Shown piece by piece: positions 35,265 through 41,989 of a stretch of 42,467 nt of DNA; positions within the stretch are counted from its first letter, which is position 1, and each line of letters opens with the position of its first letter. A model generated the notes under the pieces. That model ran no database searches and was not told the origin of the DNA. It saw nothing but the letters and a program-made list of their open reading frames with translations. The stretch lies in the NCBI GenBank assembly GCA_947630975.1, contig CANRJP010000011.1:1-42467 (forward strand), in the 5' to 3' direction. Both the position numbers and the translations under genes were made by a program. This DNA is from an uncultured Clostridia bacterium (GTDB lineage: Bacteria; Bacillota; Clostridia; UMGS1883).

Positions 35265-35287
35265 AAAAATGTAAAGGAGAAATGCAC

Positions 35288-38200
35288 GTGAAAAAGACGA
35301 GACTTTTGGCATTAGTGATCTGTCTTGCCTTCGTGTTCACCATGGCGCCCATGGCGAGCTTTGCGGAGGAAGCGGCTCCCGGTACGGATACCGTTGTGGA
35401 GTCCTACGGTACGATCACCGCCACACTGAGGTTTGATTATCCTCAGCGCACAGATTTGGTAACATCCAAAAACATCAACGTTTTCCTCCTGGATGAAAAC
35501 GGAAACATGCTTCGCGAGGCGAAGATCAACGGCAACGCTTCGACCGACACCGTTGTTACCCTCAAGAACACCGACGGTGTTCAGCTCACGACCGAGCAGG
35601 AGATCGGCTATATGGACGTACTGTTCAACAACGTTCCCGCCGGCGTTTCCTATGTGCTTGAGTACACCGGCGACGGCTATAAGAATTATATTTCCGAGCC
35701 GTTCGCAATTGAAAATTATTCCAAGCGCGCAATAGTCGGCACGGACGGCAACACCTTCTCTCTCGGCGACGTTACCGGTGACGAGCTCATTGATCAGGCC
35801 GACATCGACGCCATAAGCGGCGCTCTTGGCAGCGAGACCGCCGAGGACATCGCCCTTTACGACCTGAACGGCGACGGCAAAATCGACATCGTTGACCTCA
35901 TGTACGTCAACCATCAGGCCGCTCAGGAAAAAGGCGGCCCGGGCTTTGCAAACGAGCCCATTGAGATCTATGACACCAACCTTATAATGACAAAGGTCAT
36001 AGAGGTCAAGAAAATTCAGGAAGAGATGGAACAGACTTTGGACGTTTCCGGCAATGTGGCCAACCTCTTTGCCGAGAACAACGCCGATACCATCGCCTTC
36101 AGCTCTAAGAACGACGAGCCCGTGGCCATCCCCATCACCTTTGAGGAGCCTGTGGAGATGGAGCAGATCGAGATCGTAAGCCCCTCCGTTACAGGCGCTA
36201 TCACCGCCGGTCTGGCCAAGGTGGAGTGCGAGGATCTGGACACCAAGGAAACCTTCTTTGTAGAGGTTCCCTTCAACACCGAAACACCCGAAGAGGTTCT
36301 ACCCCTTGCCGCCGACGGCGACACCGGTCGCAGCAACATCGTTATCAACCTTGGCCGCCGGGTGGCTGTCAAGAAGGTAACCATCAATGTTGAGAAGGTA
36401 GAGGGCGCTGACGGAAAGGCCACCTTCGCCGTAGTTCAGGAGATCAAGTTCCTCAAGGACATCGTTCCCGAGAACCCCGCCTCCCAGAACATGGCCGTGA
36501 CCGGCCTCACCGCCACCCCCGGCAACGAAGAGATCAGCTTCACCTGGGACGCTTATCCCAACGTTACCGGCTACATAATCTACTACACCAACACAAAGAA
36601 GCCCGGCGAGGGTGAAAAGCAGGTATTCTTCGATACCAACAGCGGTACCGTTGACGGCCTGACCAACCTGACCCCCTACAACTTCTGCATCACAGCCGTA
36701 AGCGGCGACGAGGGCGCCGGCCGGTGGGAGAGCATCCGCTCCGAGACAATCACCGCCACTCCCGAGCCCAGTGGCCCGCCCACAGAAAAGACGACCATGA
36801 TCGTTGTTAAAAACAGCGAGGACGACAACACTGTAAAGAGCGGCGAGCTGAACGTATCTTGGAAGGAAGTTGACAACACCTCTTTCTACCGCGTTTATTA
36901 TAAGGATACCGGCGTACTTACGGACAATCCATCCTATAAAAACGAGGACGAACTCATAGCTGACGGCTACACGGTATACAGCCTTACCGGCGAAGAGGGC
37001 GCAACCGACGTAGCCACCTTAAGCGTGACACTGACCGGCCTTACAAATGACGTTGAATACAGCATCTTTGTCATCGTCGGCAATGACAAGGGTCTCGGCC
37101 CTGTGTCCGACCGCTATACCGGCACTCCCAAAGAGAGCAAGATCGAGTTCCCCAAGCTGCCCACTATGGATAGGCTGGAAAATGAACACATCACCGGCGG
37201 ATGGCTTTTAAACAGCAACTATGACCCCAACGAAACTGCCGATGGTAAGACCTTTGATCCCAAGGTAATGTATGACGAGAATCCCACTACATACTGGCAA
37301 TCCTCCAGTAGATGGTGGGAGGACACAAATGTTGCCTTTGAGTTTGACCAGGAATATGAGATGAACTATCTGTTCTATATTCCGAGGCTTGACGGCACAT
37401 ACCGCAACAACCACCGTCTCTACTCAATATGGACATATGACGAAGAAGCTTATCAAAAGGTAGTGGACGGCGGATATATTGAAGAACTTAAGGCAAAGAA
37501 TTGTATCAGTGACAGTAAAAAGATTGAAGCCCTCAAGGCTTTAGCTACCACCACTACCATTAACGGCAATGTAAATGTTTCCGAACGTATAAACGGTTAC
37601 ATGATATTCCCCTTCGACAAGACAAATGTAAGATTTATCATTATCAGAACCGAACAGGAAAATTACTGGGTACGTTCGCTTACTGATGTATTCTTCTATA
37701 AGGGTAATAGTCTTGCCGAGGATGTTTCCGCTCTCTTTGGAGACGACGCTTACACCACTCTCAGCGAGTCTGCCGCTAACGCAAGTGACGCAGCTTTCAA
37801 ATCGACTATTAGTCAGCTCAAAAGCCGCGCCAACAGCTCTGACGGTTACTATGTTGACAAGGACAGCCTTCTTGACGAGATCAGTCTTGCCGAAGCACTC
37901 AAGAACAACAAGCCCACCGGCGGCTTTGTAAAGAGCGACTTCCGCTCTCGCGGCGCAGGAAAAGACTCCACCAAGTTCGGTCAGAGCGCCAGCGACCTTC
38001 AGCCCCTCGGCGTGGCCTGCTGGTCCGGCCCAGACGCCATCCGCGCCGACCGCGGCAAACTGAATGACGGTGCGCTGGTAGTTTACGCTCAGCTTCCCGA
38101 CGATGCAGACACCCATCCCGTGACCCTTGTGGGCACCCAGTATTACGGCGAGGCCAACGCCTGGCAGACCTCCGTTCCTCTGAGCAAGGGCCGCAACCGC

Positions 38201-40606
38201 GTCAAGTTCCCCAACATGGGCGGCAACTCCACCGAGCGCGGCGGTTCGGTATACATTCGCTACGACGGCGCTCATCCCGAGCAGATAAAGCTTCAGGTTC
38301 GCGGCAAAAATGCCACGATCATTCCCATGCTTGAGCTTCAGGATTGGGATACAATGAGTGTTGAAGACCGCAAGGCCGCCATAAGCACTTACGTTGCCGA
38401 GCTTAAGAAATTTGTTACAAATCCCCCGTATGTCAACAACAGTCTTGACTACAGAATTTTGAATTCCACCGAGATCTCCATGCCCAGCGTCCTGCTGTCC
38501 ATGCCCGCTACTCAGGTGAAGAACGCCATCTTCCCCACCGGCGCGACAGATGAAGATGCCGCCCAGACCCTGTACAACAACGTACTCGCCTGGGAGGAGT
38601 TCATGCACGTTGTGAACGCCATTCAGGGCATCGACGAGATCACCTTCGACGCCGACAAGCCCAACGTTATGGAGAGCCGTCAGAACATCCGTTACATGAA
38701 GATGTTCGGCAAGGCCTTCATGTACGCCGCCGGCAGCCATGTGGGCATAGGCTGGGGTTCCGTTGGCGGAGTTGTTACCGGACGACCCACCTCCACCCTC
38801 GCCGAGGGCGACGAGAGCAACGGTCTCTTTGGCTGGGGCATCGGTCACGAGGTCGGCCACAACATGGATAAGATAGGCCGCGCCGAGCTGACCAACAATA
38901 TTTACTCCATCGCTCTTCAGGCTTACGACGGCAAGCAGTCTACAACTCTGCCCACCCGTCTCGAGCTCAGCGACAAGTACGCTCAGGTATATGACAAGGT
39001 AAGCGCCAGACGGCCCGGCACCTCCAACGACGTATTCGTCCAGTTGGCCATGTACTGGCAACTCCATCTGGCATACGACGAAGCCAACCCATTTGAATTC
39101 TATAACAAATTCTTCACTAAGTGGAAGAACAACGAGCACAGCGATAAGACCACTGACGAGCGCATTGCCCTCATCGCCAGCGAGGTCGCTCAAAAGGATC
39201 TCAGCGACTTCTTCTACAGTTGGGGCATGAGACTCAGTGAGGATGTGATTAACACCATTAAGACCCAACCCGCTGAAGAACGCTCCATTCAGTACCTTAA
39301 CGACGAATCTTACAGGCTCCGTCTTAAGGGATATGAAGTAACTCCCGGCAATACTACCGCAAGCTCCAGCCTGCTCATCGACCTTCCCGCCGATGAGCGC
39401 GTGCCCGCCATGCCCGAGGTGGCCGAGGGCGAGACCGCTCCCGAGCCTCCCGAATACGACGACGAAAAGACCGTTAAGATAACCTTCAACAATCCTTCTC
39501 CCGACGTACTGGGCTACGAAATCGTCCGCAACGGCGAGACCATCGCCTTTGTGACCGAGGGCAACGAATACTTCGACGTTATCGGTTCCGCCAACAACAT
39601 GGCATTCGAGTACAAGGTAAAGGCCTATGACACCATGGGCGGCATCCTTGACACGGATTTTGTTAACGCCGGTCAGGTGCGCGTGGCTTACGAAAACACC
39701 ATCCCCGCCGCCGATTACTCTCTTGTGACGGCTGACGGCACCGCAACCTTCACACTGAACAAAAAGACCGCCATCTCCGGCATCAAGGTGACTCCCGCTC
39801 CCACTGAGGGAACCTTTGAGGTGAAGGTCACCCGCACCGTTACCGATGAGAACAACAGTGAGACTCAGGTTACCGTCACCGCCAAGAACGGCGACTTCAC
39901 AAAGAGTGACGCGGCCGCGGGCAAGGATTACTATGTATCTTACTTCAACAAGCCCGGCGCGGAAGCCTCCGACACCCGCATCTGGACATATGACGCCGAG
40001 ACCGTGGTTGTGACCGGCGTTCCCGCCGACGCGACGGTAGAACTCATAGGCTACCCCGGCGACAAGGTTGACTTCTACGCCGACGCCACCGTGGGCATTC
40101 TCAGCGCCGACTATCAGTACGGCGAGGTTTACACCGAGGAAGAAAAGGCCGCCAATCCCAAGCTTGAGGACAAGATTATTCCCGCCGGCAGCCTTGTGAT
40201 CGTCGGCACATACCGCGGCGACCCCGTCTACAACCTTGTTCAGATAGACGGTCGCTTCGTTACCAACGACGATACAAACACCACCACGCCTTACACCGTG
40301 ACCGAGCGTCCCGTTGACGGCTATAGCCTGCTCTTTGCCGAAATACCCACTGACGGCGAAGTAAGCGACATCAGCGACGGTATGTTCATCTTCGTGCCCA
40401 ACACTCAGAAGGAAGCCGAGCTCCAAGGCAAGGACGTTTCCGACTGCGCCGCCTCCAGCGTGCTTCCCGCTCAGATTAAGGCCGTATTCTACCGCACCGA
40501 CAACCCTGAAGACGCAACTCAGAAGCGCAAGACCAGCGACACAATCTGGATCGACTCTCCCTCTTATGAGTCCATGCCCACTATTGAGCTTGCTCACACT
40601 AACTAA
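35288..40606 (+). CDS. Secreted multidomain M60-type metallopeptidase with dockerin
   Basis: A 1772-residue exported protein. The signal peptide is residues 1-26 (ends MASFA). Then come a beta domain, a type I dockerin-like duplication at about 157-213 (DVTGDELID and DLNGDGKID calcium loops), and two fibronectin type III-like domains (about 400-495 and 500-620). A discoidin-like domain (about 620-805) precedes a peptidase M60 domain (about 880-1340). Its zinc motif is HEVGH at 1187-1191 with Glu 1200, matching HExxH-x8-E. C-terminal beta domains include another Fn3-like unit. M60 enzymes act on mucin-type glycoproteins, so host-glycoprotein degradation is likely. No LPxTG or transmembrane anchor is visible. 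GTG 35288 is preferred over ATG 35282 because AAAGGAG lies at the right distance. Confidence 0.88.
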   Translation: MKKTRLLALVICLAFVFTMAPMASFAEEAAPGTDTVVESYGTITATLRFDYPQRTDLVTSKNINVFLLDENGNMLREAKINGNASTDTVVTLKNTDGVQLTTEQEIGYMDVLFNNVPAGVSYVLEYTGDGYKNYISEPFAIENYSKRAIVGTDGNTFSLGDVTGDELIDQADIDAISGALGSETAEDIALYDLNGDGKIDIVDLMYVNHQAAQEKGGPGFANEPIEIYDTNLIMTKVIEVKKIQEEMEQTLDVSGNVANLFAENNADTIAFSSKNDEPVAIPITFEEPVEMEQIEIVSPSVTGAITAGLAKVECEDLDTKETFFVEVPFNTETPEEVLPLAADGDTGRSNIVINLGRRVAVKKVTINVEKVEGADGKATFAVVQEIKFLKDIVPENPASQNMAVTGLTATPGNEEISFTWDAYPNVTGYIIYYTNTKKPGEGEKQVFFDTNSGTVDGLTNLTPYNFCITAVSGDEGAGRWESIRSETITATPEPSGPPTEKTTMIVVKNSEDDNTVKSGELNVSWKEVDNTSFYRVYYKDTGVLTDNPSYKNEDELIADGYTVYSLTGEEGATDVATLSVTLTGLTNDVEYSIFVIVGNDKGLGPVSDRYTGTPKESKIEFPKLPTMDRLENEHITGGWLLNSNYDPNETADGKTFDPKVMYDENPTTYWQSSSRWWEDTNVAFEFDQEYEMNYLFYIPRLDGTYRNNHRLYSIWTYDEEAYQKVVDGGYIEELKAKNCISDSKKIEALKALATTTTINGNVNVSERINGYMIFPFDKTNVRFIIIRTEQENYWVRSLTDVFFYKGNSLAEDVSALFGDDAYTTLSESAANASDAAFKSTISQLKSRANSSDGYYVDKDSLLDEISLAEALKNNKPTGGFVKSDFRSRGAGKDSTKFGQSASDLQPLGVACWSGPDAIRADRGKLNDGALVVYAQLPDDADTHPVTLVGTQYYGEANAWQTSVPLSKGRNRVKFPNMGGNSTERGGSVYIRYDGAHPEQIKLQVRGKNATIIPMLELQDWDTMSVEDRKAAISTYVAELKKFVTNPPYVNNSLDYRILNSTEISMPSVLLSMPATQVKNAIFPTGATDEDAAQTLYNNVLAWEEFMHVVNAIQGIDEITFDADKPNVMESRQNIRYMKMFGKAFMYAAGSHVGIGWGSVGGVVTGRPTSTLAEGDESNGLFGWGIGHEVGHNMDKIGRAELTNNIYSIALQAYDGKQSTTLPTRLELSDKYAQVYDKVSARRPGTSNDVFVQLAMYWQLHLAYDEANPFEFYNKFFTKWKNNEHSDKTTDERIALIASEVAQKDLSDFFYSWGMRLSEDVINTIKTQPAEERSIQYLNDESYRLRLKGYEVTPGNTTASSSLLIDLPADERVPAMPEVAEGETAPEPPEYDDEKTVKITFNNPSPDVLGYEIVRNGETIAFVTEGNEYFDVIGSANNMAFEYKVKAYDTMGGILDTDFVNAGQVRVAYENTIPAADYSLVTADGTATFTLNKKTAISGIKVTPAPTEGTFEVKVTRTVTDENNSETQVTVTAKNGDFTKSDAAAGKDYYVSYFNKPGAEASDTRIWTYDAETVVVTGVPADATVELIGYPGDKVDFYADATVGILSADYQYGEVYTEEEKAANPKLEDKIIPAGSLVIVGTYRGDPVYNLVQIDGRFVTNDDTNTTTPYTVTERPVDGYSLLFAEIPTDGEVSDISDGMFIFVPNTQKEAELQGKDVSDCAASSVLPAQIKAVFYRTDNPEDATQKRKTSDTIWIDSPSYESMPTIELAHTN

Positions 40607-40621
40607 AAGGAGGTCACGAGC

Positions 40622-41734
40622 ATGAAAAACACCACTAAAAATCTTATTTCAATTATAGCTTCGGCTTCCGTGGCCATGACGGCAATGCCCGCCATGGCTG
40701 CCCCCTCGGTTCTCCTGTCCGGCAAGGGCAAGGATGTGGCCGTGTCCATAAAAGACGCCGGCACTCAGTTTTACGCCGCTCAGTTGGAGATAACCGTGGG
40801 CGAAAACACTTACGACCTTATTGCCGCCGGAGATGATTTGGGCGTAATCAAGGTTTTGGAGGGCACTCCCATTCCCCTGACCCTTTACATCGACTCTCTT
40901 GACCTCCGCGAGGCCACCGGCGAGATGAAGCTGGGCGACATAAAGTCCGGCGCTGACATCGACTTTACCGGTATCAGCGACAAAGCTCAAGTAACGCTTG
41001 TGAACCGTTCCTACAAGCCCGTCGAGCTGACCGACGTGGACGTGATCGTTCCCAAAAAAATCGACCTCGCCGCCAAACTTGGCTGGGACGGAGAAAACTT
41101 CACCATCGACTTTATCTATGACGGTGAGACCGTGGGCGACGCCATCAGAGTCTACGCCGAGGACGACGAGGCCGGAGTTTATACCCAGGCCGACCTCAAC
41201 GAGGGAATGACCGGCGCGTCCTTCACCACAGTCAACACCAACCGCCAGTATCAGGCCAAGGGCGTTTCGGAGGGAATGGAAAGCCTTAACGCCACCGAGC
41301 CCGTCAGCGTGTACAGTCTTGTAATGGAGGCCATAGCCGGTTTTGAGGAAAACACACGCATCAGCGCCACGCAGTTGGTCAAGGTCAACGAGGTGCTCAA
41401 AAACGGTAAAATCTTCATTGACAAGGATGGCAACCTCACCAAAGAGGCCCAGCTTGTAATGGAAAAGACCGACAATGTGCTCAAGCTCACCGACAAAGCC
41501 GTCACGGCGGGTCTCGCCTTCACCGACGGCACCGGCGCCGAGGATCAGACCGGCAAGTACAATATGCTCACCCTCAACGATGACGGCACGGCCACTCTTT
41601 CCAGCGGGGCGGAAATTTCCGTCGTTGAGGTACTCTCCCTCGACGCGGTCAATCTCGAGTTTGTTCCCACCGAAATCGCTGAATCCGAAGTGGACGACAG
41701 TGATTTCAATATGGACTTCACACCTGAAATATAA
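40622..41734 (+). CDS. Secreted companion protein of the M60 peptidase, unknown function
   Basis: A 370-residue exported protein with a signal peptide ending near AMPAMAA (residue 27). Residues about 30-140 form a beta-rich domain (KDVAVSIKDAGTQFYAAQLEITVGENTYDL, then LTLYIDSLDLREATGEMKLGDI). It loosely resembles a cohesin-like fold, but I cannot confirm this. The rest is acidic with no recognised family. AAAGGAGGT precedes the ATG 16 bases after the M60 stop, so it is cotranscribed and probably functions with that protein. If it is a cohesin, it could bind the dockerin of its neighbour. That is speculation. Confidence 0.75.
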   Translation: MKNTTKNLISIIASASVAMTAMPAMAAPSVLLSGKGKDVAVSIKDAGTQFYAAQLEITVGENTYDLIAAGDDLGVIKVLEGTPIPLTLYIDSLDLREATGEMKLGDIKSGADIDFTGISDKAQVTLVNRSYKPVELTDVDVIVPKKIDLAAKLGWDGENFTIDFIYDGETVGDAIRVYAEDDEAGVYTQADLNEGMTGASFTTVNTNRQYQAKGVSEGMESLNATEPVSVYSLVMEAIAGFEENTRISATQLVKVNEVLKNGKIFIDKDGNLTKEAQLVMEKTDNVLKLTDKAVTAGLAFTDGTGAEDQTGKYNMLTLNDDGTATLSSGAEISVVEVLSLDAVNLEFVPTEIAESEVDDSDFNMDFTPEI

Positions 41735-41746
41735 GGAGGTACCACG

Positions 41747-41941
41747 ATGAAAAAGACATTTGTTATTCCTTCCGTTAACGCGGTTCGGCTCACCTCCTGT
41801 GAGGACATTATGGCTCTTCAGTCCGCCGATCTGGCTGTCACCAACAAATCCATTATTCAGACGGGCGGCAGCTTCGCCGACACCGCCGCCAATGACAAAT
41901 TCAGTTATTGGGGCGGCAAAACCGATAGCTGGGTAGAGTAA
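41747..41941 (+). CDS. 64-residue peptide of the M60 operon, unknown function
   Basis: A short protein with no signal peptide. It has the MKKTFVIPSVNAVRL-type N-terminus seen in many small clostridial and Bacteroides proteins of unknown role, then a polar middle and an aromatic C-terminus (FSYWGG...DSWVE). A consensus AAGGAGGT precedes the ATG, 12 bases after the preceding stop. The end of the operon and a terminator follow. It may be a signalling or precursor peptide, but I see no maturation genes in the window. Confidence 0.65.
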   Translation: MKKTFVIPSVNAVRLTSCEDIMALQSADLAVTNKSIIQTGGSFADTAANDKFSYWGGKTDSWVE

Positions 41942-41954
41942 AATAAATAACGAC

Positions 41955-41989
41955 GGCCCCCGGAACTCTTAAAGTTCCGGGGGCCTTTG
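41955..41989 (+). terminator. Terminator of the M60 operon
   Basis: GGCCCCCGGAACT (41955-41967) pairs perfectly with AGTTCCGGGGGCC (41973-41985), followed by TTTGTT. It is a strong rho-independent terminator 13 bases past the last stop. Confidence 0.92.

Follow-up and report, generated by a model that had tools for sequence, protein, structure and literature searches.

A dockerin-bearing M60 metallopeptidase of gut Clostridia is encoded with a putative cohesin-type adaptor and with a small peptide that accompanies a genus-wide C-terminal domain

Introduction

The anchoring scaffoldins of the cellulosome, of which SdbA and OlpA of C. thermocellum are examples, combine cohesin with SLH. In the type IX system of the Bacteroidota, C-terminal sorting domains are carried by many secreted enzymes. 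A further arrangement is the mucinolysome of Limousia, in which many dockerin enzymes share multi-cohesin scaffoldins, and an LPxTG wall anchor is present on cSca5 (PMC12997984). Linear polyphosphorylated (LPP) RiPPs, reported in 2026, are made from precursors whose leader has the motif YxxPxV and whose C-termini vary; the paper describes what they do in Bacillota as unknown (PMC13381572). The LPP gene set consists of an RRE (PqqD), an SpI-like peptidase, an HprK-like kinase, an NTP transferase and an MsbA-like exporter (PMC13381572).

The window analyzed here is the whole of contig 11 (42,467 nucleotides) from the 2.95 Mb, 191-contig assembly of an uncultured Clostridia bacterium (genome G000). 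It contains three adjacent genes for a secreted M60 metallopeptidase with a dockerin (gene A), a secreted companion (gene B) and a small peptide (gene C). The companion is similar to SdbA and OlpA in that a secreted cohesin-fold domain, as predicted, is joined to a domain in the surface-anchor position, and its relatives in families f18 and f31 do bear SLH. It differs from those scaffoldins in that its one cohesin-like domain is unrecognizable by sequence and is encoded beside what appears to be its sole partner enzyme, and in that the domain at the anchor position in the window genus is a new one, referred to here as the CTD. The gut habitat, dockerin-bearing peptidases, glycan enzymes and, if B is what its predicted fold suggests, a cohesin protein with a wall anchor are likewise features of the Limousia mucinolysome (PMC12997984), but in the present case a single protease appears to have an adaptor to itself, and it is the CTD, not a dockerin, that the glycan enzymes bear. 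The single cohesin-like domain of B also sets the locus apart from cellulosomes and mucinolysomes as a class, which are defined by a multi-cohesin scaffoldin and several dockerin enzymes. As with the type IX sorting domains, the CTD is a single conserved domain that closes secreted enzymes of many kinds; it is found, however, in Clostridia, each CTD gene has its own peptide gene behind it, and the likeness drawn here is one of layout.

Results

All features of the window given below lie on the + strand. Genes A and B are separated by 15 nt and genes B and C by 12 nt, GGAGG ribosome sites are present in these gaps, and a strong intrinsic terminator of 13 pairs (41955..41985) lies immediately 3′ of gene C. 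These short gaps, ribosome sites and terminator indicate that A, B and C form one operon, and the three-gene operon of the original prediction was thus confirmed with its open reading frames in place. In three relatives, a gene pair for SbcD/SbcC-like nucleases is located downstream of A-B-C (L044, 14799-18115; L045, 13033-16103; L046, 9356-12513); the window's contig stops short of the corresponding region.

Gene A (35282..40606) encodes a secreted protein of 1774 amino acids with an N-terminal beta-rich region, a dockerin, two fn3 domains (both over cut-offs) and the M60 peptidase domain. Translation may begin at the ATG at 35282 or at the GTG at 35288, the start chosen in the original prediction, and the GTG has the better ribosome-site spacing. 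The M60 profile PF13402 scored 65.9 bits (cut-off 25.8) over residues 1064-1315 (38471..39226), and the zinc motif HExxH is present as HEVGH at residue 1189 (38846-38860), so that both defining features of the M60 family are found in A. M60 structures were also among the closest solved relatives of the protein. The Dockerin_1 profile matched residues 161-211 (35762..35914) with 26.3 bits against a cut-off of 22.9, and this segment contains the two calcium-binding loops that, with the profile match, define a type I dockerin (GDVTGDELID and DLNGDGKIDIVD). The analysis therefore bears out the earlier description of a secreted zinc peptidase with a dockerin near its N-terminus. A is probably a mucin-directed peptidase, it being the M60 family alone that points to mucin.

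Gene B (40622..41734) encodes a 370-amino-acid protein that consists of a signal peptide (judged by eye), a putative cohesin-like domain (residues 27-152; 40700..41077) and the CTD (residues 153-370; 41078..41731). No Pfam or NCBIfam match was obtained for B. The cohesin profile PF00963 did not match its N-terminal domain, a profile-profile comparison of this domain with the cohesins of G000 itself using hhalign gave a probability of only 2-3%, and searches of the PDB with sequence profiles of the N-terminal domain or the CTD returned nothing useful. An AlphaFold model of the N-terminal domain was built from six sequences and was of moderate quality (pLDDT 61.5, pTM 0.57). When this model was compared with 350,542 PDB chains using Foldseek, the first 27 matches were all cohesins, with probabilities of 0.96-1.00, E-values from 5e-4 and TM-scores of about 0.5. 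Modeling of full-length B gave a poor result (pLDDT 50), and the matches of that model to tandem fn3-type folds were set aside. The possible cohesin-like domain of the companion, as originally proposed, is thus supported at the level of the predicted fold and not at the level of sequence.

A search of 391 Clostridia genomes with the N-terminal domain of B gave eight strong matches in three families, and all eight (8/8) are encoded directly 3′ of an M60-dockerin gene. This count includes G203, whose contig holds only the 3′ end of the A homologue, and family f31, in which the A-type genes were recognized by sequence similarity and not by Pfam. Every complete neighbor carries a dockerin, so the two proteins are best read as a dedicated cohesin-dockerin pair. 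In family f18 (L047 and L048), a linker and three SLH repeats (E 3e-32) stand behind the N-terminal domain in place of the CTD, and the f31 homologues have a tail of the same kind, as judged by eye from the sequence. SLH repeats are absent from the window's B, and no peptide gene was seen behind the SLH-bearing B genes of f18 and f31. The fold match, the strict pairing with M60-dockerin genes and the exchange of SLH for the CTD together make it most likely that B serves A as a surface adaptor with one cohesin, to which A would bind. In terms of gene linkage, A and B remain together in three families and the A-B-C order is kept in four of the eight genomes of the genus, while the third gene of the proposed trio is missing where B bears SLH. 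It is therefore the CTD, rather than the protease, that the peptide accompanies.

G000 also owns a cohesin-dockerin set that is separate from the window operon. It encodes four large surface proteins with the domain order cohesin-dockerin-cohesin (L001, L002, L004 and L010, on contigs C16, C155, C38 and C28), in which these domains come after Listeria-type repeats, leucine-rich repeats or Ig-like domains. Because the other four dockerins of the genome sit in these proteins, the window's pair is not part of a classical many-enzyme scaffold.

The CTD recurs at the C-terminus of about 90 ORFs, at 91 places, in the eight genomes of the genus, with 18 copies in G000, 24 in G004 and 2-12 in each of the other six. 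It was found in none of 28 other genomes of the order, and in the 391 genomes of the class only genus members matched. The proteins that carry it are mostly giant (750-2000 amino acids) and begin with signal peptides, and their known domains include GH78, GH88, GH39-like, heparinase II/III, PI-PLC-X, LamG, CBM and Ig-like domains. Although these passenger domains differ widely, the CTD is always C-terminal. The best explanation of this distribution is that the CTD is the general tail of the genus for large secreted, often glycan-active proteins. Where some families carry the cohesin-like domain on SLH, the window genus has the CTD, which thus occupies the anchor position; by analogy, the CTD may attach proteins to the surface. 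SLH repeats and SLH proteins are abundant in the genus alongside the CTD, so the CTD appears to be an additional device, and its interpretation as a full genus-wide replacement for SLH was rejected. Two other candidates were also rejected: a sortase anchor, as no LPXTG tail was seen by eye and the proteins end in DFxPEL, and a polymorphic toxin with an immunity peptide, as the C-terminus here is conserved and the passenger varies.

Gene C (41747..41941) encodes a 64-amino-acid peptide with a leader-like conserved N-terminus of about 22 residues that contains an FxxP motif, followed by a variable C-terminal part. Searches of Pfam and NCBIfam gave no match for C or for its peptide family, and no signal peptide was seen in C by eye. 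The dN/dS value of C between G000 and G004 was 0.37, and values of 0.08-0.37 were obtained for 10 of the 11 peptide pairs tested, the remaining pair having a value of 1.06. Values well below 1 are indicative of purifying selection, and the 64-residue peptide can accordingly be regarded as a real, translated-type gene, as had been supposed.

An independent peptide profile, built for C-like sequences, detected 88 places in the genus. Such a peptide was located downstream, on the same strand, of 84 of the 91 CTD places, nearly always 15-32 nt away, and conversely a CTD was located upstream of 84 of the 88 peptides. The seven CTD genes without a peptide match were G001:C248, G005:C3:59380, G006:C1, G003:C5, G005:C4, G003:C204 and G001:C118; in two of these seven (L020 and L026), the stop codon is followed directly by a GC-rich, terminator-like stretch. 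The four peptides without a CTD upstream were G001:C222:12293, G001:C21:7145, G007:C35:6158 and G002:C12:54854. The consensus of the genus peptides was MKKxFxxPx[IV]xxxxLxxxExVM...D...W, and their mean identity was 44% over the first 23 positions and 23% beyond. Distances among CTDs and among peptides were correlated (Mantel r 0.69 overall, 0.77 in G000 and 0.75 in G004; p < 0.001), which fits co-inherited pairs but can also be caused by linkage alone. Identical peptides are encoded behind two G004 genes that are recent duplicates. Read-through of the B stop codon as a source of the peptide was rejected, as the spacing differs from pair to pair and often does not keep the reading frame.

The narrow genus profile also gave weak matches in other families, likewise behind secreted proteins. 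With a broader profile, 42 of 321 genomes, from 29 of 194 genera, yielded such peptides; outside the window genus, a single genome had as many as 18 copies. They are 35-68 amino acids long, with a conserved stretch over the first 20 residues ([YF]xxPx[IVM]x[IV]xxFxxE[DN][IV][IVL]TxS) and a variable remainder. Outside the genus, 89 of 92 peptides lie immediately behind an ORF of 100 or more amino acids on the same strand, with a median gap of about 17 nt; 11 of the 92 were seeds of the broader profile, which was seeded by peptide sequence and not by position. By a simple custom rule, signal peptides were called on 69 of 80 complete upstream ORFs versus 83 of 247 other ORFs of the same loci (Fisher p 5e-17). 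The upstream proteins had a relative sharing the C-terminus in 49 of 72 cases, compared with 21 of 72 each for the N-terminus and the middle. In families f18 and f19, the proteins upstream of the peptides share C-terminal regions of their own, which appear as separate, lineage-specific counterparts of the CTD (L291-L296, L332 and other G043 loci; L302, L306, L310 and other f18 loci).

The peptides resemble LPP precursors (PMC13381572) in being short, with a conserved N-terminal aromatic-xx-P motif and a variable C-terminus, and LPP-type neighbor genes are located beside the peptide in a few Clostridia genomes. They differ in that up to about 20 copies are present per genome, each behind a secreted protein, in that they show no HQ/FET motif, in that the window-genus peptides have FxxP, and in that no LPP cassette lies at the window locus. 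The [Y/W]xxP motif of LPP precursors is replaced by FxxP in 59 of 59 peptides of the window genus, and the aromatic residue in the 92 peptides of other Clostridia was Y in 63, F in 28 and W in one. In G022, G240 and partly G110, the peptide is followed by genes for a P-loop kinase-like protein, PqqD, an S24/S26-type peptidase and an ABC exporter; the LPP-type set is full in G240 (including NTP_transf_5), mostly present in G022 and partial in G110. The kinase-like proteins had no Pfam match and were named from their GTGKST motif. A true lasso peptide was rejected, as no cyclase or B2 gene was seen on inspection of the G022 and G240 clusters.

PqqD proteins are present in all eight genomes of the window genus. 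In G000, the PqqD genes lie by ispG and other unrelated genes and the kinase-like gene is located elsewhere, and in G005 the NTP_transf_5, kinase-like and PqqD genes are close together. A stand-alone PqqD of 88-89 amino acids is encoded directly upstream of ispG in G000, G004 and G005 (L220, L222 and L224; contigs C46, C17 and C14), and this ispG-linked PqqD resembles the PqqD of the RiPP-like cluster in G240. Because the window-genus peptides have FxxP and not YxxP, and no cassette is present at their loci, membership in the LPP class is not established. Perhaps the peptide works like an LPP-type precursor, and we do not claim that it is one.

Discussion

The operon probably encodes a cell-surface protease in which A is docked on B, B is held by its CTD, and the peptide partners the CTD. 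In such an assembly, the cohesin-fold domain of B would bind the dockerin of the secreted A one to one, and the CTD would keep B, and hence A, on the cell surface, as SLH does in two other A-B families. Nearly every CTD gene has a small peptide gene of its own behind it. Most likely, the conserved N-terminus of this peptide would be recognized as a leader by a PqqD-type protein and then cut off, while the variable remainder would act with the cognate CTD outside the cell, either in attachment or in maturation. Gene order, protein families, pairing statistics, purifying selection, the fold match and the anchor swap all speak for this assembly; binding of A to B, surface attachment by the CTD and export of the peptide as a partner would follow from it, and the role of the peptide is the least certain. 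The original prediction of a self-contained mucin-degrading complex is not supported in this form, as about 90 gene pairs across the genus share the CTD and the peptide, and B has the look of a surface adaptor and not of a free subunit. A wider interpretation, which we put forward tentatively and consider rather doubtful at present, is that protein-plus-RiPP surface display of a kind not described before exists across the class, in which lineage-specific C-terminal domains would each have an RRE-guided, processed and exported peptide that attaches or matures the protein.

Two alternatives concern the peptide. It is conceivable, although unlikely, that the peptides give rise to a separate RiPP (a signal, an antimicrobial or a capsule-linked product), lie behind secreted-protein genes for co-expression only and never touch the CTD protein. 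They have in common with LPP precursors the [YF]xxPx[IVM] motif, the small size, a conserved leader and a C-terminus that varies (PMC13381572), and PqqD, peptidase and ABC genes neighbor them in G022, G240 and G110. However, the position behind a secreted protein is nearly strict across many families and copies, the peptide co-diverges with the CTD, and up to about 20 different copies per genome are many for one product. It is somewhat less likely that the peptide remains in the cytoplasm as a partner of the CTD protein, such as a dedicated chaperone or a secretion pilot, and is never exported. The lack of a Sec signal peptide by eye is consistent with this role, as is the GGAGG site at the stop codon, which suggests translational coupling and matched amounts; but the N-terminus resembles an RRE-bound leader more than a folded chaperone, and exporter and peptidase genes adjoin the peptide in three genomes.

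The N-terminal domain of B could also be a different beta-sandwich, for example a glycan-binding module, in which case A and B would be merely co-secreted. We regard this as improbable: the lack of a sequence match to cohesin and the modest confidence of the model leave room for it, but cohesins fill the first 27 places of the PDB search, the pairing with the dockerin gene is strict in three families, and the placement of the domain on an SLH anchor in L047 and L048 is the known layout of anchoring scaffoldins. It is likewise improbable that the CTD, instead of being an anchor, is a mere spacer or has spread through recent gene duplication. Such a reading would agree with its restriction to one genus, its many copies and recent duplicates such as the two G004 genes, but it is less easily reconciled with a CTD that is C-terminal on passengers as diverse as GH78, GH88, heparinase, PI-PLC-X and LamG and that takes the place of the SLH repeats in B.

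An M60 protease that is held by a dedicated cohesin-type adaptor, as the proposed binding of A to B would have it, is a variant of cohesin-dockerin surface display and is the ordinary part of this locus. More unusual are the CTD-peptide pairs, together with their counterpart across the class; no description of such peptides behind secreted proteins was found in the literature searched, the coverage of which was incomplete. That the cohesin-like domain is joined to SLH in some families but to the CTD in this one hints at the job of the CTD. The class-wide pairing of leader-bearing peptides with secreted proteins would give LPP-like RiPPs (PMC13381572) a testable role. If the proposed display is correct, it would represent an unrecognized way for gut Clostridia to present glycan- and mucin-degrading proteins on their surface.
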